In this document: positions 7,048 through 60,062 of the stretch, one piece after another | Layout: each line of letters opens with the position of its first letter | Position numbering within the stretch: position 1 is the first letter of the stretch | Assembly (NCBI GenBank): GCA_913058395.1 | Contig: CAJXQI010000013.1 | Location: 1-64,000 of the forward strand | DNA: 64,000 bases | Direction of reading: 5' to 3' | Origin: an uncultured Colwellia sp. | GTDB lineage: Bacteria; Pseudomonadota; Gammaproteobacteria; Enterobacterales; Alteromonadaceae | The notes under the pieces: model-generated | The model's database searches: none | What the model was told of the DNA's origin: nothing | What the model saw: only the letters and a program-made list of their open reading frames with translations | Program-made: the position numbers and the translations under genes

Positions 7048-8115
7048 TTATTTATGAAATGGCTTACTTAAACGGTGTACTGACTCAATAAAGTGTCCAG
7101 CATGCTCAGGGTTCACATCAGGGTGAATACCATGGCCCAAGTTAAATACATGGCCTGTTCCACCTTCACCAAAACCAGTTAAGATTTTAGATACTTCTTG
7201 TTCGATACGTGGCAATGGTGCGTATAACATAGACGGGTCCATGTTACCTTGCAATGCAACTTTATCACCTACGCGCGCTTTAGCGTTCTCAATATCAATA
7301 GTCCAATCAAGACCCACAGCATCACAACCTGTTGCTGCAATATCTTCTAACCACATGCCACCATTTTTGGTGAATAGTGTTACTGGTACTTGGCGACCAT
7401 CATTATGACGAGTCAGTCCGTCAACAATTTTTGCCATGTATTGTAATGAAAATTCTTTGTAATCTCGCGGTGAAAGTACACCACCCCATGTGTCAAATAC
7501 CATGACTGATTGTGCACCAGCAGCTATTTGCGCATTAAGGTATAAAATTACCGAGTCAGCTAATTTATCTAATAATAAATGTAATGTTTGTGGCTCAGCA
7601 AACATCATTTTTTTGATTTTAGTGAAAGCTTTAGAACTACCACCTTCAATCATGTATGTCGCAAGTGTCCACGGGCTACCAGAAAAACCAATTAATGGCA
7701 CATCGCCGTTAAGTGTTTTCTTAATAGTACGAACTGCATTCATAACGTATTGCAATTCGCCTTCTGGATCAGGAATACCTATTTTATCAACATCAGCTTT
7801 ACAAGTAATTGGACGTTGAAACTTAGGGCCTTCGCCCGTTTCAAAATAAAGTCCTAAACCCATCGCATCAGGAATAGTTAAAATATCGCTGAACAGAATT
7901 GCAGCATCAAGCGGAAAACGACGTAATGGCTGAATAGTAACTTCACAGGCTAAGTCAGCATCACGACAAACTGTCATGAAATCGCCAGCACCTTTACGTA
8001 CTTCACGATACTCAGGTAAATAACGACCAGCTTGACGCATCATCCAAACAGGGGTGTAATCAACAGGTTGACGCAATAACGCGCGCAAATAAGTATCATT
8101 TTTTAATTCAGTCAT
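7048..8115 (-). CDS. hemE: Uroporphyrinogen decarboxylase HemE
   Basis: 355 aa, one residue longer than E. coli HemE. It removes four acetate carboxyls from uroporphyrinogen III to give coproporphyrinogen III in heme synthesis. The N-terminal signature [11 protein letters not shown] is at 26-36, and the second signature [17 protein letters not shown] is intact. The gene stands alone between a terminator and a long upstream region. A possible promoter for it lies close upstream (TTGAAG and TATTAT, minus strand, about 8134-8161), which would leave a very short leader. Confidence 0.97.
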
Positions 8116-8680
8116 GAAAATTCTTCTCCGCTATAATATGGGCGCATTCTAGCACTTCAAAATTTATTGATCTATGTCCCAAATCAATTCTAAGGCAGCT
8201 CTTCTCATTCAAAGCACTTTTTTAGTTGGATTTTTGTAAATTTTGTGACAAAAGACAAAAATACTTAAATGCAATTGCTCAATCTAGTACTTACCAGAAA
8301 ACTAGTTACTCTAAAACTTGCTCAATAAAACATCAGCACAAAATAAAATTTAAAATTATTTTAATTTTTTTTCACATGCACAAATCAAACTTGTGTCAGC
8401 ATTTTTTACAACTTATTCCTTATATTTCATTGACTTTCACAACTGTGGTAAACCAGTGACTAAATAAATATCAGCGTTTTCACATTTTTCTGCGTCACCT
8501 TTACACCTTGATTGATAACATTTTTTTACAATTCACGACGACCTTCAATAACGAGTATGCTTTTAGCTACTTCCATTTTTAGCCTTAATCGTAATAAATG
8601 AGCCATTTCACAATGCTTTCTTCGAGTCATAAACACTCTTATATACGAATAAGTTCGTGGAATATATGCTCTATTAAAGT
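8116..8680. other. Intergenic region upstream of hemE
   Basis: About 560 AT-rich bases. The short open frames on both strands have no ribosome site, no recognisable domain and composition like the surrounding spacer, so I do not call genes. The part next to hemE should hold its promoter. The remainder shows nothing I can name; a candidate small RNA follows from 8683. Confidence 0.5.
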
Positions 8681-8682
8681 TG

Positions 8683-8711
8683 TTGCACCATGAAAAAGCC
8701 TTTGCTATAAA
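8683..8711 (+). promoter_or_regulatory. Candidate promoter of a small RNA
   Basis: TTGCAC (8683-8688) and TATAAA (8706-8711) are spaced 17 bp, followed by a GC-rich discriminator (CCCGCG). No coding gene follows closely, but a terminator does. Confidence 0.5.
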
Positions 8712-8717
8712 TTGTCC

Positions 8718-8825
8718 CGCGTTACACAAAAACAATAATAAAAATAAAGAAATAAATAAAAAGAAGCTAGTTAAACTAGACCATACAGCGAGCATTTCAA
8801 GCCTTACTTCGGTAAGGCTTTTTTA
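8718..8825 (+). ncRNA. Candidate small RNA of about 105 nt
   Basis: The unit runs from the predicted start of the promoter at 8683-8711 to a strong terminator at 8799-8825. Between them is an A-rich single-stranded stretch (about 8725-8765) and no convincing reading frame; the only ATG (8690) gives a six-codon peptide that overlaps the promoter. This promoter-short transcript-terminator arrangement is typical of trans-acting sRNAs. I do not recognise the family and no homology can be checked here. Confidence 0.4.
8799..8825 (+). terminator. Rho-independent terminator with TTCG loop
   Basis: AAGCCTTAC (8799-8807) and GTAAGGCTT (8812-8820) pair perfectly around a TTCG tetraloop, with the T-run continuing to 8824. 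No coding sequence ends near it on the plus strand, which supports a non-coding transcript upstream. Confidence 0.85.
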
Positions 8826-8960
8826 TTGCCTAAATTTTATTAGTGCCATTAAGTTCGCGATAAAATTCGTCATAAAGTGATGAATAAGCCCCTTCCTACT
8901 TTTTTGATAAAAGTACTTTAAGCGCTAAAACATGAATAACTAAAATAAGTTGAAAACATT

Positions 8961-9794
8961 ATGCCTACTGACCAAATACTGAATCGCTTTAGTAAAGTTG
9001 CCGTTATTTTATGGCTAATAGCTGTAATACAAAGTTTATTAGCCATTTTCGGTATGTTCGGAGTTATGCACACTAACCAAGCACGTATTATATTTGGTGC
9101 TGTCGAGCTCATGACTATGCTGTTGGTTATCATCAATTCAATTGCCATAATGCGCTTTATCTCCCAGCAACAAAGCTCATTAGCATTTTTACTAAGCCGG
9201 CTGTGCTTATACTCTCTAATACTTTGTTTTTTCGGCGACGTTGTTAATCGAAATTTTCTCCAACAGTTCTATGAGTATGATGACGTAATAAAGCACAGCT
9301 ACTTAGCCGCTTCAGTTATATTCTTTTTCCCTGGCTACCTTATTATTGCGGCTGCCATTACATACTTAGCCACGCTCAAAGGCCTTTCAAAAGACTTTAT
9401 GATTACTAGCGCGTTAATAGCCACGACTATTGCGCTGTATACCTATAACGATATGCATATTGCTGGTAGCAGTGCCCTACTAACCATTATTACGGCATCT
9501 TACTCTGTGTTGGTCAGTGTATTGGCCGTATCAGCAATATGGTTGCTTAAATCACTATCATGGCGCCAAGTTCCTATTCGTATTTGGTTAGCAGCATTAG
9601 GGCTTATTCTCGCAATGGTTGCTGACGCTGTAATTGGCCAGTTTTGGATTTTTGGTAATCACGGGCAAGGCTATTTTCCAATGGTTAGCCACATTAATTG
9701 GATTATTTATCTAGGTTCACAAGTGTTAATTCAGCAACTTCCATTAGGAATTTTACAATTAAAAATAGCGCAACAATCTGCTGAGACTACATAA
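8961..9794 (+). CDS. Polytopic membrane protein of unknown function
   Basis: 277 aa with about eight hydrophobic segments (roughly 12-35, 42-65, 75-95, 110-135, 145-162, 170-195, 208-228 and 240-265). The general look is of a YhhN/lysoplasmalogenase-like or 7-8 TM protein, but I see no diagnostic motif and do not assign it. It is a single gene after the small RNA terminator and before the LhgO-like oxidase, in the same direction. Confidence 0.75.
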   Translation: MPTDQILNRFSKVAVILWLIAVIQSLLAIFGMFGVMHTNQARIIFGAVELMTMLLVIINSIAIMRFISQQQSSLAFLLSRLCLYSLILCFFGDVVNRNFLQQFYEYDDVIKHSYLAASVIFFFPGYLIIAAAITYLATLKGLSKDFMITSALIATTIALYTYNDMHIAGSSALLTIITASYSVLVSVLAVSAIWLLKSLSWRQVPIRIWLAALGLILAMVADAVIGQFWIFGNHGQGYFPMVSHINWIIYLGSQVLIQQLPLGILQLKIAQQSAETT

Positions 9795-52552: not shown

Positions 52553-53719
52553 CTAATAAGGTTTAATAAATTCGGCAAACTTCATTAACACACTCGCAAA
52601 ATCTCTCTGTCCTAAACCTAGCCGAAAGTAATTTCCAGAAAGGCCAAATAGCTCACTTGGCAGTGCTAAAACACCAGTATTTTTAGCTAACTCTGTTGAC
52701 CATTGTCTCATCGATTGCACATTTTTAACTGCCACTAAGGCGAGAATGCCAGCTTTAGGTGGATACCAGTTCAATATGTCACTATGTTGCTCAACAAACT
52801 GTTCAAATAGTGCAATATTACGCACAATAATTTTATTATTAGTTGCTAATATTTGCTGACTATTTTCGAAAGCAATAAGTGCCAACGCTTCATCGGTAGC
52901 AGAGCAGCAAATAGAGTTCTTTGTTTTAATTGCTCTTAAATTATCCATAATGGCTTTATTAGGCGTAATCGCCCAACCAATACGTATACCTGACAAGCCA
53001 AAGCTCTTTGACATGACACCAATCACAATACTATTTTGATAATCTAAATAGCGATGTGCCAATGCAACATCATCATAATTACTCGCTTGCGATACATCAT
53101 CACTTAATAAGTAACACTGATATTTTTTTGCCAGTTGTAGAATACTTTCAGCCAACGCACTGTCAATAATGTTTCCGGTTGGGTTGTGCGGTGAATTAAG
53201 TACAATCAAGCGCGTTTTGTTATTTACCACTCGCTCAAAGTCTTCAAAGGTGATGTTCCAGCCATTACTCTGCCTAAGCTGAATTTCTCTAACCTTTACA
53301 CCGAGTGATTTTGCCATGCTAACTAGCGATGGGTAACTCGGCGTAACAACGACAATTTCATCACCTGGGCACAGCACACTTTGATATATTGCTGACAACG
53401 CTTCTTGGGCGCCTGAAAACGTTACTGCATCATCAGCGCTGAGTTGCTGTTGATGTGAATTTAGCCCTTGATGAAAAGTAACAATAGCTCTTCGTAATGC
53501 AGCACTTCCTTGAATAGAAGCGTATTCCAGCTGAGTGTGAGTAACATCGGTGTTAGACAGCTGACATAACTGCGCCAAGGTCAAGGACTGCGCAGTCGAG
53601 TCACTAATACTATCCGTTACATAAGGTGCTAATTGCCGGCTAAATTCGATGTGCGCAGGTAAAGCGTGCTTTGGCATTGCTTTTGATATCACACTAGACA
53701 TTGATAAATCCGATTCCAT
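52553..53719 (-). CDS. PLP-dependent aminotransferase-fold enzyme, probable OvoB-type lyase
   Basis: 388 aa fold-type I enzyme. PLP-binding lysine is K238 in MSKSFGLSGIRIGW; SPHNPTGN and SDDVSQ are the cofactor motifs, and YFRLGLGQRDF holds the carboxylate Arg. It follows ovoA by nine bases on the same strand. Ovothiol synthesis needs a PLP-dependent lyase to cleave the histidyl-cysteine sulfoxide made by OvoA, and this is the obvious candidate by position. An ordinary aminotransferase cannot be excluded. The start could also be ATG 53701. Confidence 0.85.
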   Translation of the reverse strand: MESDLSMSSVISKAMPKHALPAHIEFSRQLAPYVTDSISDSTAQSLTLAQLCQLSNTDVTHTQLEYASIQGSAALRRAIVTFHQGLNSHQQQLSADDAVTFSGAQEALSAIYQSVLCPGDEIVVVTPSYPSLVSMAKSLGVKVREIQLRQSNGWNITFEDFERVVNNKTRLIVLNSPHNPTGNIIDSALAESILQLAKKYQCYLLSDDVSQASNYDDVALAHRYLDYQNSIVIGVMSKSFGLSGIRIGWAITPNKAIMDNLRAIKTKNSICCSATDEALALIAFENSQQILATNNKIIVRNIALFEQFVEQHSDILNWYPPKAGILALVAVKNVQSMRQWSTELAKNTGVLALPSELFGLSGNYFRLGLGQRDFASVLMKFAEFIKPY

Positions 53720-53728
53720 AATGATTAA

Positions 53729-55849
53729 TTATTTCATTCGCCATGCAGTCATTTGACATTTATCAACGGTAAAGTTTCGCGCTGACTCGTCCATAACGCG
53801 GTAAAGCTCATGCTGGCTAGTAAGATTAAATTTAGGCTCTAGTCGATTTCTCAGTGCTTCTAATGCAAATAAATTCTCACCATTAATTTTCATTCCACTT
53901 AACCATTTACTTTGTTCGGTATGCTGACTTTGATAGTGGTAATCAGAAAGAATAATTAACAGTCCTGATGGCTTCAAACGGCTAATAGCATTACGTAGTA
54001 AGCTTGCCGGATCATAACTTGTCTCAAGTGCATGTTGAACAAACACCACATCGTAGCCTTTAAAAATATCCTTCAAGTTACAGCCATCACCTTGGCTAAA
54101 TAAGATACGCTCACTTTTCGAGTTCGGTACGGCATCTACAAGCTTGAGTTCATGGTATTGGCAAATATCACCTTCAATAGTTTTGGTATAGCGAACACTA
54201 CCGCCAGTTTGCAGTTGTACCCCGTGTTGAATCGTTCGTGCTGAAAAATCAACTGCATCAATATGAGCAAAGCTTTCACTTAGCTCAAAGGCTACACGCC
54301 CGACACTACAGCCCAAATTTAATAAACGATTTGTTTGAACACCATTGTTACTTAATAAGGTTTTTATATGGGCCACGATCTGTTGACCGTAATCTTCATA
54401 AGCTAATGATTGTTCGCCAAAATAACAGTCTAATTGCTGACAAATATTTTTATCGGTTTCAAACTCATTAACTTTTGTTTTTGGTACATCTTCGATATCA
54501 CTTTCAACATAACGAAAGCCAGCATGTTGAAAGAAGTGACGACGAAAAGCATAGCGAGAAGAAGCTAACGTTTCGTTACCTGTTGATATCCAAGAGCCAC
54601 CCTTGATTAAATTATGCTTACCATCAAAAGTTGGCGTTGAAAAGTCATCATATAAAGGGTGTACCTTAAAGCCAGGAAAACCGTCAATTGCAGATTCAGA
54701 CCATTGCCAAACGTTACCGATGACATCGAAAAACTCACCATGACCAAAGCGGTTAACCGGGCAAGAAGAAGCATAATAGGCTAAATCAATATTGCCAGGT
54801 GCTTCACGCCACTGACTTTGCTCACCAACTACATTCTCTCTTAAGCAAGCCCACTCAGCTTCGGTTGGTAGACGAATGTAGGTGTCGCCTAGACTTTGTC
54901 GCCACTGGCAAAAAGCTTTAGCTTCTAAATAACTTACCTCAACTGGCCAATCTAAAGGCAATGGCATTTCACTGGTTAAGTTACGTTGTAAGTATTGGTT
55001 ATTTTCATAACGCCAAAACCTCGGCATTTTAGCTTGACTAAATTGCAGCCATGCTTGACCTTCTTGACACCAAAAGTGCTTCGATTGATAACCTTTAGCT
55101 TCCACGAATGTTAAAAACTCTTGGTTAGATACAAGGTATTTACTGGCTTTAAATTCAGCCACCTCAACCTCTAGTGCGCCATATTCATTATCCCAGCCAA
55201 AAGTTTTATCTTGAGCTTTTTTTCCTAATAAAATAGTTTGAGCGGGCACCGAAACCAAGCTATTTTCGGGTGCATTTGCAGATTCAGGGCATGACTGCCA
55301 AGCATTGTCAGCTGTTAACCATTGCAATGGCAACATGCGCATAATGACCGATGATGTCTCAAGATGAATGCGTTCATGCTCGCACCCCATCAAAATAATC
55401 CAAGCCAATGAATCTTGGTCAATTGGTAAACTCAGTTCCATATTCTCAATAAGGTTTAGCACTAATTGATATACTTCACTGCGGTAATTACGCACCTCTT
55501 CGACACTCGGCCAATCATAATGCTCGCTATTAAGATCGTCCCAACTCATTTCATCAACACCCACCGCGCAAATAGCTTCTAATCGACTATTTACCCGTTG
55601 GTTAATGTATTTCCCAAGGATCAATTTATTAATATAAAATGTAGCTGTGTGTCCGAAATAAAAGATTAATGGATGACGCAAGCGCTCGGGTCTTAGAAAA
55701 TACGCCTCATCATGATTAATGAGAGAAAACAAAGATTCATAAGTTGCCCAAGTATTTTTAAAGTATGCGACTAGCTCTTGGCGTTTCTCAGCGACTGATG
55801 GACTATCAAGTGTTGGAGAGCTTAATTGAGTGATCATATTATTTTTCAT
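53729..55849 (-). CDS. ovoA: 5-histidylcysteine sulfoxide synthase / methyltransferase OvoA
   Basis: 706 aa with the full three-domain layout of OvoA. A DinB-like domain (about 20-175) gives the iron ligands H67, H158 and H162 (HERIHLE). A formylglycine-sulfatase-like domain (about 195-450) contains RLPTEAEW and GNVWQW. A SAM methyltransferase (about 490-700) has LLNLGCSVGRVAFEL. The enzyme joins cysteine to C5 of histidine with oxygen, and its last domain can N-methylate the mercaptohistidine to give ovothiol A. It is the middle gene of a three-gene operon. Confidence 0.93.
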   Translation of the reverse strand: MKNNMITQLSSPTLDSPSVAEKRQELVAYFKNTWATYESLFSLINHDEAYFLRPERLRHPLIFYFGHTATFYINKLILGKYINQRVNSRLEAICAVGVDEMSWDDLNSEHYDWPSVEEVRNYRSEVYQLVLNLIENMELSLPIDQDSLAWIILMGCEHERIHLETSSVIMRMLPLQWLTADNAWQSCPESANAPENSLVSVPAQTILLGKKAQDKTFGWDNEYGALEVEVAEFKASKYLVSNQEFLTFVEAKGYQSKHFWCQEGQAWLQFSQAKMPRFWRYENNQYLQRNLTSEMPLPLDWPVEVSYLEAKAFCQWRQSLGDTYIRLPTEAEWACLRENVVGEQSQWREAPGNIDLAYYASSCPVNRFGHGEFFDVIGNVWQWSESAIDGFPGFKVHPLYDDFSTPTFDGKHNLIKGGSWISTGNETLASSRYAFRRHFFQHAGFRYVESDIEDVPKTKVNEFETDKNICQQLDCYFGEQSLAYEDYGQQIVAHIKTLLSNNGVQTNRLLNLGCSVGRVAFELSESFAHIDAVDFSARTIQHGVQLQTGGSVRYTKTIEGDICQYHELKLVDAVPNSKSERILFSQGDGCNLKDIFKGYDVVFVQHALETSYDPASLLRNAISRLKPSGLLIILSDYHYQSQHTEQSKWLSGMKINGENLFALEALRNRLEPKFNLTSQHELYRVMDESARNFTVDKCQMTAWRMK

Positions 55850-55890
55850 ATCTTATTCTTTATCTTAATTAAAATATTACAACGACTGGG

Positions 55891-57000
55891 CTAAAAAATA
55901 ATGTCAGCCGGCTGAAACAACTTTAAATAATGCTGCTGTAGTAATTGCCCTGTGCTTTTTTCAAAACTTTCGCCATTAATAAGACCATGCGAAGTCCCAT
56001 TAAGTACTCTGTCTATACTCTGACTAAACCAGTAATTATTCTCAAATAACGTAATTGCGCCGACATGATTACTTTGATCGTGTAACGAGCTAGGTAATCG
56101 ACCATAATTCTGTTTTTTCAGACTAACACTGTCTTTAATATCATCAATCGTGTCGATGATATTGAGCAAAGCATAAATGACATTCAAGTATGGGTTGTAT
56201 TCCTCACTGGATGCACCTAATCGGTGCTCAATACGTGCTGTTTTATGCCAGTTACTTTCGCTAAGCAGAACATTGTTTTTATCATCATAAAGTAGTGGCT
56301 CAACACCCATTTTCTGATTATGTTTACCAATATCACGATAAAGAGCAATGCTACCTTGATGCCCACCTGAAATGTCGACGGGAGAACACAACTCTTCTGC
56401 CAAGCCATATTTTGACTTTAACGCTAAACGCTCAAAAGCCTCTTCTTCTGGCAGGTAAATCAGACTCGCCGCCAAGCTAGTTTGCAAAAAGCGTTGCTGT
56501 AAACGCTCACCAAAATCACCGTCAACCAATAAATTATTGCCATGTTCATCTTGTAAACTAACATTAATTTGTACGGCATTTGGGATATGAACCGCTCGAT
56601 TATCGCCACTAAAAATATTTTCACATCCAGAGGCTAACTTACCGTTATCTCCAGCCCATACCACAGGTTTAATCAAGGTTTTCGTAATACCTTGAGTAGC
56701 AAACAGTTTTGGTAAAAAATACAATGCACGACTGAGGTTCACAGCCTCTTTTAGTGGGCTTTGGCCATTAAATAGAGAAACATATTCCCATTGGTTACTC
56801 CAATACTCAGCAACCACTTCCCCGTCAATATTCAGCTCAGCTAGCTGACGGTTTATTTGGTCGTAATTAACAGCTAAATCAACTGGTTTTTGATAACAAC
56901 CTTCCAGCTCAAAGTGTATAACGGGGCGATAGCCCTTTTTATTTATATAGTTTTGTAAGCCAGCAATAATATGTTCCGCTAGCTTATTTAATCTGTTCAT
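55891..57000 (-). CDS. Divergent glutamine-synthetase-like protein in the ovothiol operon
   Basis: 369 aa. It has no N-terminal beta-grasp domain but shows a glutamine-synthetase-type catalytic order. HFELEG (30-34, the E-x-E metal pair) and QWEY (about 70-73) come first. NAVQINVSL (141-149) stands where GS has GSGMHxHQSL, so the His is replaced. ARIEHRLGASSEEYNPYL (255-272) and LPSSLHD (302-308) follow. The 227-residue spacing from E-x-E to E-x-R equals that of GS. It probably makes an amide or gamma-glutamyl bond, but the altered His region points to a substrate other than glutamate/ammonia. It is the first gene before ovoA (41 nt). Confidence 0.7.
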   Translation of the reverse strand: MNRLNKLAEHIIAGLQNYINKKGYRPVIHFELEGCYQKPVDLAVNYDQINRQLAELNIDGEVVAEYWSNQWEYVSLFNGQSPLKEAVNLSRALYFLPKLFATQGITKTLIKPVVWAGDNGKLASGCENIFSGDNRAVHIPNAVQINVSLQDEHGNNLLVDGDFGERLQQRFLQTSLAASLIYLPEEEAFERLALKSKYGLAEELCSPVDISGGHQGSIALYRDIGKHNQKMGVEPLLYDDKNNVLLSESNWHKTARIEHRLGASSEEYNPYLNVIYALLNIIDTIDDIKDSVSLKKQNYGRLPSSLHDQSNHVGAITLFENNYWFSQSIDRVLNGTSHGLINGESFEKSTGQLLQQHYLKLFQPADIIF

Positions 57001-57133: not shown

Positions 57134-58993
57134 TTAAAAAACATTCACTTGATTCTTACCGAGGTGTTTTGCTTGATATAATGCTTGATCAGCATTGATG
57201 TAAAGCTGCTTTTCATCAATACATTCTTTAGATATTCCTGCAATGCCGATACTAACGGTGATGCTATCTTGATAACCTGAAATCATTTTAGTCTGATTAA
57301 TTAAGGTTAAAAAACGCTCGGCAACTCTTTTTGCTTCACTCGTGTTTGTTCTAGGCAATATACATAAAAACTCTTCACCACCAATTCTTCCAAAAACATC
57401 GCTTTGGCGAAAAACTTCTTTACCTATATCGGCAACGCGGCGAATTACGGCATCACCAATAGGGTGACCAAATTCATCATTCACTTTCTTAAAATCATCA
57501 ATATCAATTATAACGACTGACAATTCCATTTTAGTTGGGTCACTACCAGAAATAATTTTACCTAAATATTCAAAAATATAACGGCGATTAAAGACACCAG
57601 ATAAAGAGTCTTTTATGGTTAGCATTTGCATTTTTTTATTATTTCTGTTTTGCACTAAAATAACTATCAATACAGCTAGTCCAATGCAGACAATAAAAAT
57701 ATTAAAATATATTTCTTGTGCGCTATTATTTTTACTTTTTTCCAGTTCTAACAATTCAACTTTCGAACGATTTTTTTCTAATGCTTGCGTTATTTGTTGG
57801 CGTTCGTACTCTAAGTTGGTTCTGACTTTCACTAACCTACTCGATGATTTTTTTATAATTAATTCAGTATATTGACTATAATATTTTTCAAGCATCTTAT
57901 AGCCCAAATCAAAATCGCCACGCGCATGAGCCAATTCACCTGAAATCTTTATAACCTCTAATTGCCATGTTGTGCCCATAACATCAGGTACTTTCGAGAA
58001 CTCACTTGCAGCATTAAAAAGCGCCTCTTCTGCGGCATCTAATTGCCCTAACGTCACTAAGCAGCTTGCTTTTCGTTTATATAATTCAGCATTGTAATCA
58101 ACTAAACCTTTTAATGTTAATGCTTTATCGATAGTAGTTATGGCAAGTTCACAATCGCCTTTTTCAGCATAAGTCATTCCTAAACCATAAGCAGAAAAAA
58201 AGCTGATATTTGAATTTGGTGTGTAGCCTATACTCTGCTGATAACGATTAAAGTACTCCACTGCCAAATCATACTTTTTCCAATACCGATAGGTTGAAGC
58301 CAAGCCATAAATTGCTTCAGCAATATGTGCTGGGTAATTTAAATATTTATAAGACTCTAACGCGCGCTGATAATACTCAATCGACTTTTCATAATCATGC
58401 AAATAACCATAAATAGCACCATAGGTTTCATTAATTACAGCAATTAAAAGTTGATCTTTTAAGGCGAATGCCTCGACATAGGCTTCTTGAATATCAACAA
58501 GCGAGGTTTCAAATAATTCCGTTAAGGTTTTCGTATAAGCTAATTCTTGCTTACCATAAATATATAGACGGCTTAAATTGGCTTCTTTTGCTTGGATTAA
58601 AGCCTTGCTTAACACTTCTTTTGATAACGTATAGTTACCTTGACGTCGATGAATTATTCCTTGATAAAGATTTAAACGCGCTTGAATCTCTATTGCGGTA
58701 TTGGCAGTAACAATTGTCATTGCCAGCTTTACGGTATTATTGAAATCATCATAGAAATAAATGAGGTTTTCAGCTTGCGCCTTTCGCACTAACCACCAGA
58801 GATATTGAGACTCATTATAGGACTCAGCAACAAACTGCTTGCCAATTATTTTTTGATAGGAAAGCCAAGGTTGAAGAAATATTTCATCATCCATATGGCT
58901 AAAGTCAACGGTATCACTTGCCCTAGTATCAACAATCAGGCTAAAAAATAAAATAATGAAGCTTGCACAATAAGTTTTTAAAGCTTTCCCCAT
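57134..58993 (-). CDS. TPR-containing membrane diguanylate cyclase
   Basis: 619 aa. Signal peptide, then a periplasmic TPR array (about 90-380; for example EKSIEYYQRALESYKYLNYP and AEAIYGLASTYRYWKKYDLA), a coiled segment, one transmembrane helix (about 425-445) and a GGDEF domain (about 460-619). The active-site loop reads GRIGGEEF, so catalysis is likely. It makes cyclic di-GMP in response to an envelope signal. Upstream of the GS-like gene on the same strand with a 133-nt gap, so it is not clearly part of that operon. Confidence 0.9.
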   Translation of the reverse strand: MGKALKTYCASFIILFFSLIVDTRASDTVDFSHMDDEIFLQPWLSYQKIIGKQFVAESYNESQYLWWLVRKAQAENLIYFYDDFNNTVKLAMTIVTANTAIEIQARLNLYQGIIHRRQGNYTLSKEVLSKALIQAKEANLSRLYIYGKQELAYTKTLTELFETSLVDIQEAYVEAFALKDQLLIAVINETYGAIYGYLHDYEKSIEYYQRALESYKYLNYPAHIAEAIYGLASTYRYWKKYDLAVEYFNRYQQSIGYTPNSNISFFSAYGLGMTYAEKGDCELAITTIDKALTLKGLVDYNAELYKRKASCLVTLGQLDAAEEALFNAASEFSKVPDVMGTTWQLEVIKISGELAHARGDFDLGYKMLEKYYSQYTELIIKKSSSRLVKVRTNLEYERQQITQALEKNRSKVELLELEKSKNNSAQEIYFNIFIVCIGLAVLIVILVQNRNNKKMQMLTIKDSLSGVFNRRYIFEYLGKIISGSDPTKMELSVVIIDIDDFKKVNDEFGHPIGDAVIRRVADIGKEVFRQSDVFGRIGGEEFLCILPRTNTSEAKRVAERFLTLINQTKMISGYQDSITVSIGIAGISKECIDEKQLYINADQALYQAKHLGKNQVNVF

Positions 58994-59131: not shown

Positions 59132-59359
59132 TTATCCCTTATAGGCTTGATTAAAGCTTTTAATGTTAAAACCTTTAAGTATTTGGTCGGCAACTTTTAT
59201 TACTGGCACGCCACGCATATTCAATTTAGAAAACTCTTTTTGTCCGGCTGGTGTTTTTACATTGCATAAACGAAATGGAATACCTTCCTGCTCAAAATAG
59301 CGCTTAGCGGTTTGGCAATGAGGACAATTGTTCATCGTATAAAGTATTACGCGTTTCAT
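59132..59359 (-). CDS. Glutaredoxin-like protein
   Basis: 75 aa thioredoxin fold: ILYTMNNCPHCQTAKRYF contains the redox CPHC pair, and MRGVPVIKV is the cis-Pro loop. I start at ATG 59359, where the fold begins; a longer frame upstream has no support. It resembles GrxC/NrdH-type reductants; its partner is not known. Confidence 0.88.
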   Translation of the reverse strand: MKRVILYTMNNCPHCQTAKRYFEQEGIPFRLCNVKTPAGQKEFSKLNMRGVPVIKVADQILKGFNIKSFNQAYKG

Positions 59360-59450
59360 TAAGATTAACTTTTCACATTTAACGGATAGTAGACAGGATT
59401 CTCTCACACTTACACATAAAGCAATAAGGTTTGGCTGAAAAAGTTAAATA

Positions 59451-60062
59451 TTATTCTGCTCGCCATTCTTTAGATATTAATGTTTTGCCTGCCGATAGAA
59501 CTTTACCTTGAAAGTGGTCGCCGGCAATAATTTCTCCGACACCTGATGGCGTGCCTGTCATCACAATATCGCCATCTTCCAATGCGATAAACGATAAAAT
59601 TTCATTGAGTATCGCCAAAGGTGAGTACAACATCATGGCAACTGATGCCGTTTGTCGTCGTTTACCATTAATATCTAACTCTAGAGTAAACTCTTGGTCA
59701 ATGGCATCAATAGTAACAAAGTCACTAAAAAGCGCTGAATCAGTAAAAGCTTTAGCTCGTTCCCAAGGTAAACCTTTCGCTTTTAATTTTGATTGCAAAG
59801 CCCTTTTAGTTAAATCTAATCCTACTGCAACTGCGCAAAACGTTCCTTGTTGATATAAAAAACAAAGCTCCGCTTCATAATGTAAGGTTTCTTGATGATA
59901 CGCCGATAGTTTATGCCCTATAGCAGCATTGGGTTTACTAAAAAGCACCATATTATCAGGAATTTCATTCGCTAGTTCACTGATATGTTCTGCATAATTA
60001 CGTCCAACACAAATGATCTTTGATGGCGTAATATAACCCTGTTCAACTTTAACCGATTTCAT
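59451..60062 (-). CDS. Fumarylacetoacetate hydrolase family protein (YcgM-like)
   Basis: 203 aa. The block KIICVGRNYAEHISELANEIPDN at the start, FSKPNAAIGH and the final DGDIVMTGTPSGVGEI are FAH-family signatures with metal-binding Glu residues. The short form is typical of acylpyruvase or oxaloacetate tautomerase enzymes. AAGGG precedes the ATG. The exact substrate cannot be told from sequence. Confidence 0.9.
   Translation of the reverse strand: MKSVKVEQGYITPSKIICVGRNYAEHISELANEIPDNMVLFSKPNAAIGHKLSAYHQETLHYEAELCFLYQQGTFCAVAVGLDLTKRALQSKLKAKGLPWERAKAFTDSALFSDFVTIDAIDQEFTLELDINGKRRQTASVAMMLYSPLAILNEILSFIALEDGDIVMTGTPSGVGEIIAGDHFQGKVLSAGKTLISKEWRAE

Follow-up and report, generated by a model that had tools for sequence, protein, structure and literature searches.

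A glutamine synthetase-fold protein encoded beside the sulfoxide synthase OvoA in Colwellia is a candidate for a further step in 5-thiohistidine metabolism

A protein with the fold of glutamine synthetase (GS), here designated GSL, is encoded next to ovoA, the gene of the 5-histidylcysteine sulfoxide synthase OvoA, in a 64,000-nucleotide stretch from an uncultured Colwellia sp. (assembly GCA_913058395.1, contig CAJXQI010000013.1, positions 1 to 64,000; hereafter the window). GSL most likely works as an amide ligase on a 5-thiohistidine intermediate, with a presumed use of ATP, and it probably extends the synthesis of sulfur antioxidants of the ovothiol type by a step in the marine Colwellia group. 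The reading as an amide ligase acting downstream of OvoA is given a probability of roughly 0.45, and that GSL is an active enzyme is considered quite probable. The gene is the first of three on the minus strand, in the order 5′ to 3′ GSL, OvoA and a pyridoxal phosphate (PLP) enzyme. The coordinates of the open reading frames bear out the adjacency and the intergenic gaps of 41 and 9 nucleotides described in an original prediction for this locus.

55891..57000, minus strand: GSL, GS-fold protein of a new family without the beta-grasp domain, 369 amino acids (open reading frame, fold model, conservation, profile match)
53729..55849, minus strand: OvoA, 5-histidylcysteine sulfoxide synthase with a C-terminal N-methyltransferase, 706 amino acids (family models, motifs)
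52553..53719, minus strand: PLP enzyme of fold type I, optional member of the cluster, 388 amino acids (family models, neighbour comparison)

The association of GSL with the sulfoxide synthase was strict in all samples. A scan seeded with GSL only, which covered 84,980 species with one genome apiece and used two peptide patterns that distant relatives could escape, yielded 59 loci, and in every one of them a sulfoxide synthase gene adjoins the GSL gene on the same strand. Clustering of the neighbouring genes in these loci gave GSL and OvoA 59 times each, a GGDEF-type protein 35 times, a glutaredoxin 30 times and the PLP enzyme 27 times. Two further samples overlap with the scan and with each other. 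Among 60 genomes, one of them the window's own, 22 carry GSL and 26 carry ovoA above the cut-off, and a congener (G014) had neither above the cut-off; among 295 genomes of the order, again with the window's own, GSL was present in nine and ovoA in 53. A GSL gene without a neighbouring sulfoxide synthase, which would have spoken against the functional link originally predicted, was not seen in any of these searches (59/59, 22/22 and 9/9 adjoining). We regard a functional link of GSL to the thiohistidine pathway as nearly certain.

The three genes had been taken for one ovothiol operon, and in this respect the original prediction has to be revised. The conserved unit is the pair of GSL and sulfoxide synthase and not the trio, because the PLP gene lies beside GSL in only 27 of the 59 loci and the methyltransferase part of OvoA is missing in three of them; the pairing is independent of both. 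GSL was found in Gamma- and Alphaproteobacteria, with Colwellia records as its nearest named relatives, and is rare outside its own group: profile searches detected it in two of 369 gammaproteobacterial genomes, one being the window's own, and in one of 385 alphaproteobacterial genomes, which was the centre genome itself. In three alphaproteobacterial loci (L108, L112 and L113) OvoA precedes GSL, which is the reverse of the usual order. A 19-bit match in G021, covering 59 residues of a 1238-residue frame, was dropped as a chance hit.

The kinship of GSL with GS and its lack of the beta-grasp domain, both part of the original prediction, were corroborated by structure modelling and profile alignment. 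An AlphaFold2 model calculated from 55 sequences showed a mean predicted local distance difference test score (pLDDT) of 89.8 and a predicted template modelling score (pTM) of 0.91. This 55-member alignment comprised the window and 54 of the 59 scan loci, L056, L057, L058, L085 and L102 being left out as near copies or owing to an unsure start; a smaller alignment contained 11 sequences. A Foldseek search with the model returned 143 matches at E values up to 0.001, the best at 3.1e-12, and among the matches listed all 50 were GS or GS-type amide ligases. The hhalign comparison of 60 GSL sequences (filtered to 57) with 18 GS-family proteins aligned GSL residues 9–327 with GS residues 105–429 (E 1.2e-7, probability 94%). 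As this alignment begins at GS residue 105, GSL starts where the GS catalytic domain starts, with the beta-grasp domain missing, and the model opens with a helix (residues 2–21). GSL is thus predicted to have the GS catalytic-domain fold, a kinship made firm by profile and structure model together.

Direct sequence searches gave less. The window GSL matched no Pfam or NCBIfam family, its comparison with PDB sequences, also by profile search, gave noise only, and a PF00120 search of the window's own genome recovered the ordinary GS only. A single protein in a limited GS-family set matched GSL, with E values of 1e-5 (phmmer) and 4e-6 (blastp) in what was a tiny database. Selection on GSL is strongly purifying, with ratios of non-synonymous to synonymous substitution rates (dN/dS) of 0.06–0.15 in eight of nine pairs; in the ninth, dS was saturated.

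The active site was compared using the numbering of the window genome's own GS, which agrees with the familiar enterobacterial numbering; the roles of these GS residues in binding metal, substrate carboxylate and ATP phosphate are general knowledge. Conservation was counted over 60 GSL sequences, namely all 59 scan loci and the window. The characteristic motifs of GSL are HFELEG (E31, E33), EYWSNQWEY (E65, E72), HIPNAVQIN (Q144, N146) and RIEHRLGASSEEYNPYL (R256, E258, R260), with the following positions in the window:

56899..56916, minus strand: HFELEG, with E31 and E33 at the metal-site positions E129 and E131 of GS (coordinates from residue numbers)
56785..56808, minus strand: EYWSNQWE, with E65 and E72 at the metal-site positions E212 and E220 of GS (conservation and profile alignment)
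56563..56589, minus strand: HIPNAVQIN, Q144 and N146 at the positions of GS H269 and H271 (conservation and profile alignment)
56314..56328, minus strand: GKHNQ, with invariant K226 and H227, within a segment preceding RIEHR that is extended relative to GS (placed by hand from alignments)
56221..56235, minus strand: RIEHR, R256, E258 and R260 equivalent to GS R355, E357 and R359 (conservation and profile alignment)

Residues E33, E65, E72, E258, R191, R256, Q144 and N146 are kept in all 60 sequences, and E31 and R260 in 59, where the remaining sequence has an X. The GS metal glutamates 129, 131, 212, 220 and 357 correspond to GSL E31, E33, E65, E72 and E258 (kept in 59–60 of 60), and the substrate-carboxylate arginines 321 and 359 to R191 and R260. 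With the GS family (PF00120) GSL therefore shares the ExE, E(x)6E and RxExR patterns and the equivalents of R321 and R359, while an NPY block is present in most of its members. The E-x-E, Q-W-E and R-I-E-H-R/N-P-Y-L motifs described at the outset are present in the window GSL, and the carboxylates of the metal sites, the loss of which sites had been named as counter-evidence, are retained. New to GSL are the invariant residues K226, H227, Q215, Y221 and W251, of which K226, H227 and W251 lie in the longer-than-GS stretch preceding RIEHR. The conservation pattern gives the picture of a metal enzyme that is apparently working and respecialised rather than decayed.

The OvoA of the window is canonical and of full length. 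It matched the family models TIGR04344 with 667.5 bits (cut-off 400) and TIGR04345 with 229.5 bits (cut-off 170); its best solved relative is 8khq (E 2.4e-218), with which the motifs GHTA, EHERIH and SRYAFRRHFFQHAGFR are identical, so that the intact motifs reported before are verified. Residues 1–450 were compared between 64 GSL-linked sequences and 20 GSL-free ones, the latter drawn from 20 of the order's 44 ovoA genomes without GSL, with six of the 20 compared residue by residue. Consistent differences appeared at five columns only (45, 94, 148, 172 and 178), none of them inside the three motifs, and among the six GSL-free proteins single members (L048, L168) vary inside the last motif. In a tree of OvoA the GSL-linked sequences do not form one clade; it requires three changes in the presence of GSL, which a single gain followed by two losses could explain, without fixing the number of gains.

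In the alphaproteobacterial loci L108, L112 and L113 OvoA ends after the synthase domain (470–497 amino acids). No methyltransferase domain above the cut-off was found in these assemblies, which are metagenome-assembled and leave the absence uncertain; the search gave weak generic matches in the three, and each of 14 control genomes matched as well, 13 without reaching the cut-off. The L108 synthase (L108:4515-6008) is 45% identical to OvoA 8khq and 42% to EgtB-IV 8vih, carries Phe at the OvoA tyrosine of the RYAF motif, reaches 596 bits with TIGR04344 and is perhaps a separate synthase type; it sits on a very long branch of the tree. A truncation was also seen in L171, a GSL-free locus sharing its genus with two GSL-bearing genomes, where ovoA stops after the synthase domain and the methyltransferase part lies in a separate overlapping frame.

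The PLP enzyme matches PF00155 and belongs to fold type I. Its best family is GntC (NF041364, 234.7 bits, below the cut-off of 415) and its third-best capreomycidine synthase VioD (TIGR03947, 199.7 bits, below the cut-off of 390.9); the model of the PatB C-S lyase (TIGR04350) gave 113.7 bits, below the cut-off of 340. The enzyme is probably a C-S lyase, putatively in the role of OvoB, of a subfamily nearest to GntC and capreomycidine synthase, and is not of the PatB lyase type. Its gene was not found in 32 of the 59 clusters, in two of which (L091 and L092) the available sequence ends about 1 kb past OvoA. No orthologue elsewhere was detected in the 12 of these 32 genomes that were searched whole, because the best match in each was only 22–30% identical; two positive controls of the search were recovered with E values of 4e-139 and 6e-139. 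Likewise, the 20 GSL-free loci contain no close relative of the GSL-linked PLP gene, the nearest being the PatB-type gene of L049 (27%). Lyase genes of this type are present in L049 and L164 (358.6 and 297 bits, cut-off 340). Altogether four of the 20 GSL-free loci (L049, L164, L165 and L176) have an adjacent PLP-enzyme gene of similar look.

In the pathway that we propose, OvoA would join histidine and cysteine to a sulfoxide, from which 5-thiohistidine would be released by a C-S lyase, the PLP enzyme in this cluster and a different lyase in others. GSL, as a metal-dependent enzyme, would activate a carboxylate, either that of glutamate or thiohistidine's own, and couple it to an amine, which would yield an amide conjugate of 5-thiohistidine or of the sulfoxide precursor. 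Such a conjugation would run parallel to N-methylation to ovothiol or replace it. GSL most likely works downstream of OvoA. Had it prepared another substrate for OvoA, the active site of that enzyme would be expected to reflect this, yet its motifs are undifferentiated, the five differing columns lying outside them; OvoA also prefers free cysteine (PMC9103826). Since GSL persists where N-methylation seems absent, 5-thiohistidine or the sulfoxide is a more likely substrate than ovothiol; the conjugate itself may involve glutamate, ovothiol or 5-thiohistidine. Activation of a carboxylate is suggested by the conserved metal cluster and carboxylate-binding arginines, and the open site resulting from the missing beta-grasp domain may suit a bulky amine acceptor.

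Several observations weigh against an amide ligase of this kind. GS His269, a ligand of metal and substrate found in 18 of 18 control proteins, is replaced by Gln144 in all 60 GSL sequences, and Arg339 and Arg344, likewise present in 18 of 18 controls, have no conserved arginine counterpart. The alignment columns of GSL residues 205–255 contain no invariant or nearly invariant arginine, and the exact counterparts are unsure: hhalign places N228-Q229 and the following residues opposite Arg339 and Arg344, and a hand alignment fits the GSL strand SIALY to GS TVALR, so that G216 and Y221 come to lie there. The change of H-x-H-Q to Q-I-N-V described originally is real, but only its first histidine is unusual, as GS His271, which is Asn146 in 60 of 60 GSL, is His in 15 and Asn in three of the 18 controls. 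As His269, Arg339 and Arg344 are without conserved equivalents, the ATP site of GSL appears to be remodelled and ordinary binding of ATP phosphate is doubtful; the GKHNQ stretch is a candidate replacement for the phosphate-site arginines. Mainly because of these missing arginines the amide ligase is not rated higher. GSL has no beta-grasp domain, a part that contributes to closing the intersubunit active site of GS. Foldseek TM-scores were modest among the matches listed (0.49–0.60 by query length). In a Pfam scan of the 55 members at E values up to 10, the filters of which drop most matches above about 0.1 and which listed 15 families, PF00120 missed the window protein and matched only two members (best E 4.4e-4), and the unrelated model MAAL_C matched six (best E 8.6e-4). 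No metabolite of the proposed kind is known, and the divergent synthase of L108 makes it uncertain whether every GSL member has a purely 5-thio substrate. A relationship of GSL to MAAL_C proteins was discounted, because the structure model matches GS.

The loss of the GS residues H269, R339 and R344 beside kept metal glutamates, together with the new invariants K226, H227, Q215, Y221 and W251, could also mean that GSL is a pathway enzyme with altered GS-fold chemistry, such as hydrolysis or deamidation, phosphate transfer or C-S chemistry on the sulfoxide. Dop is a GS-fold enzyme doing hydrolysis or deamidation, and the 32 of 59 clusters lacking the PLP gene would need a different activity for C-S cleavage. 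In the other 27, GSL and the PLP gene coexist, so that GSL is not simply a substitute for the lyase, and the carboxylate-binding equivalents of R321 and R359 (R191 and R260) are kept; we consider this explanation unlikely, albeit the foremost of the alternatives. Losses among canonical GS residues and a one-to-one linkage to synthases that do not form one clade would equally suit a non-catalytic partner of the synthase, i.e. a scaffold, a regulator or a metal-handling subunit. Pseudoenzymes usually lose their metal carboxylates, whereas all five are kept in 59–60 of 60 GSL sequences; in addition, 44 of the 53 ovoA genomes of the order do without GSL, and the 20 compared show no consistent difference in OvoA motifs. 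A partner role is therefore rated lower, as improbable.

GSL might also act before the synthase and, like EgtA in ergothioneine synthesis, supply gamma-glutamylcysteine, a histidine amide or another amide donor. EgtA (glutamate-cysteine ligase) belongs to the same GS/GCS superfamily and is, like GSL, encoded by a ligase-type gene of a histidine-thiol pathway. PMC9103826 describes EgtA as a relative of gamma-glutamylcysteine ligases and gamma-glutamylcysteine as the substrate of EgtB, and reports that OvoA tolerates histidine amide and histamine; the same source states that OvoA strongly favours free cysteine over gamma-glutamylcysteine. The canonical motifs and merely five discriminating columns of GSL-linked OvoA disfavour an EgtA-like action before the synthase, and EgtA/GCS2-type families are not among the 15 Pfam families matched by any of the 55 GSL members. 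Because non-synthase neighbours reach at most 35 of 59 loci, there is also no regular partner to remove a glutamyl group, and an upstream role appears less probable again. The same neighbour counts argue against a functionless by-product of synteny within one bacterial family, to which most members (Colwelliaceae and relatives by record title) would conform. Three alphaproteobacterial loci keep GSL and synthase together in reversed order, and none of the searches showed GSL without the synthase; this possibility was already disfavoured and is highly improbable.

Several known systems can be compared with GSL. GSL shares the catalytic fold of GS and of GS-type gamma-glutamyl-amide ligases (GmaS 9qur, 1-naphthylamine GS 8x6z, archaeal GS 8tfc), and differs from the GS family by the missing beta-grasp domain, by Gln in place of H269, by the lack of conserved R339/R344 equivalents and by the longer GKHNQ stretch before RxExR; it also lies below family recognition. 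PafA and Dop, the pupylation enzymes, likewise have a GS-like catalytic domain without the GS beta-grasp; no Pup-ligase Pfam match was found among the 55 GSL members, and we know of no linkage of PafA or Dop to thiol synthesis.

A parallel in gene context is the 5-thiohistidine N-acetyltransferase 5THNAT. PMC12631010 describes its gene as adjoining ovoA, sometimes one encoding OvoA without the methyltransferase, and reports that neighbourhood reasoning led to an assay in which the enzyme acetylated 5-thiohistidine and not ovothiol; methylating OvoA is stated there to be the one enzyme other than 5THNAT that is known to use a 5-thiohistidine derivative as substrate. The PDB also contains a stand-alone 5-thiohistidine methyltransferase, OvoM (9bxl). 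GSL resembles 5THNAT in lying beside ovoA, including genes for OvoA without methyltransferase, and may carry out a comparable tailoring reaction. 5THNAT is a GNAT-type acetyltransferase found mostly in Bacteroidota, whereas GSL has a GS fold and occurs in Gamma- and Alphaproteobacteria.

GSL constitutes a new family of GS-fold proteins associated with an established pathway. No paper connecting a GS-like protein with ovothiol or ovoA was found in the literature searched, which did not cover subscription papers, and in the accessible text of PMC9103826 the term "glutamine synthetase" appears only in one reference title. If our reading is true, GSL would be the second non-methylating tailoring enzyme of 5-thiohistidine after 5THNAT (PMC12631010), many ovoA clusters would make a product other than ovothiol A, and the GS fold would function lacking both its beta-grasp domain and the arginines that usually bind ATP phosphate. 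The family provides a defined gene and named marine strains for seeking such a product. A bolder reading, held only slightly less probable than the amide ligase itself, is that GSL founds a family whose product in marine Colwelliaceae and some Alphaproteobacteria would be a low-molecular-weight thiol not described so far, an amide-linked thiohistidine, made with a nucleotide site rebuilt around GKHNQ and Gln in place of His, and with ovothiol not being the end product.

Upstream of GSL lie three genes named from reading the sequence:

57134-58993, minus strand: TPR/GGDEF-type gene, ending at 57134, 133 nucleotides upstream of GSL
59132-59407, minus strand: glutaredoxin-like gene
59451-60062, minus strand: fumarylacetoacetate-hydrolase-like gene

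As homologues of the GGDEF-type and glutaredoxin genes were found in 35 and 30 of the 59 loci, they are syntenic and not obligatory. The promoter scan gave 18 promoter-like sites, no excess over the 16.1 ± 3.4 in shuffled sequences, and the terminator scan six terminator-like sites against 3.5 ± 1.7 in shuffles, none of them convincing.

Broken genes occur in some clusters: GSL is split into two frames in G009 (L053), whose OvoA and PLP frames are open, and OvoA is split in G010 (L054) and in L100, which may reflect real decay or sequencing errors. In L112 (Robiginitomaculum), two genes follow GSL within 7146-9315, one for a class III aminotransferase (NF005685, 588 bits), the other for a protein related, below the cut-off, to beta-keto acid cleavage enzymes; these downstream genes possibly extend the pathway or are unrelated. 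The record of L067 (NZ_JAGHQT010000002.1) is titled Endozoicomonas sp. G2_1 and is probably misnamed; in the tree its OvoA groups with Colwelliaceae, next to Thalassotalea with weak support.

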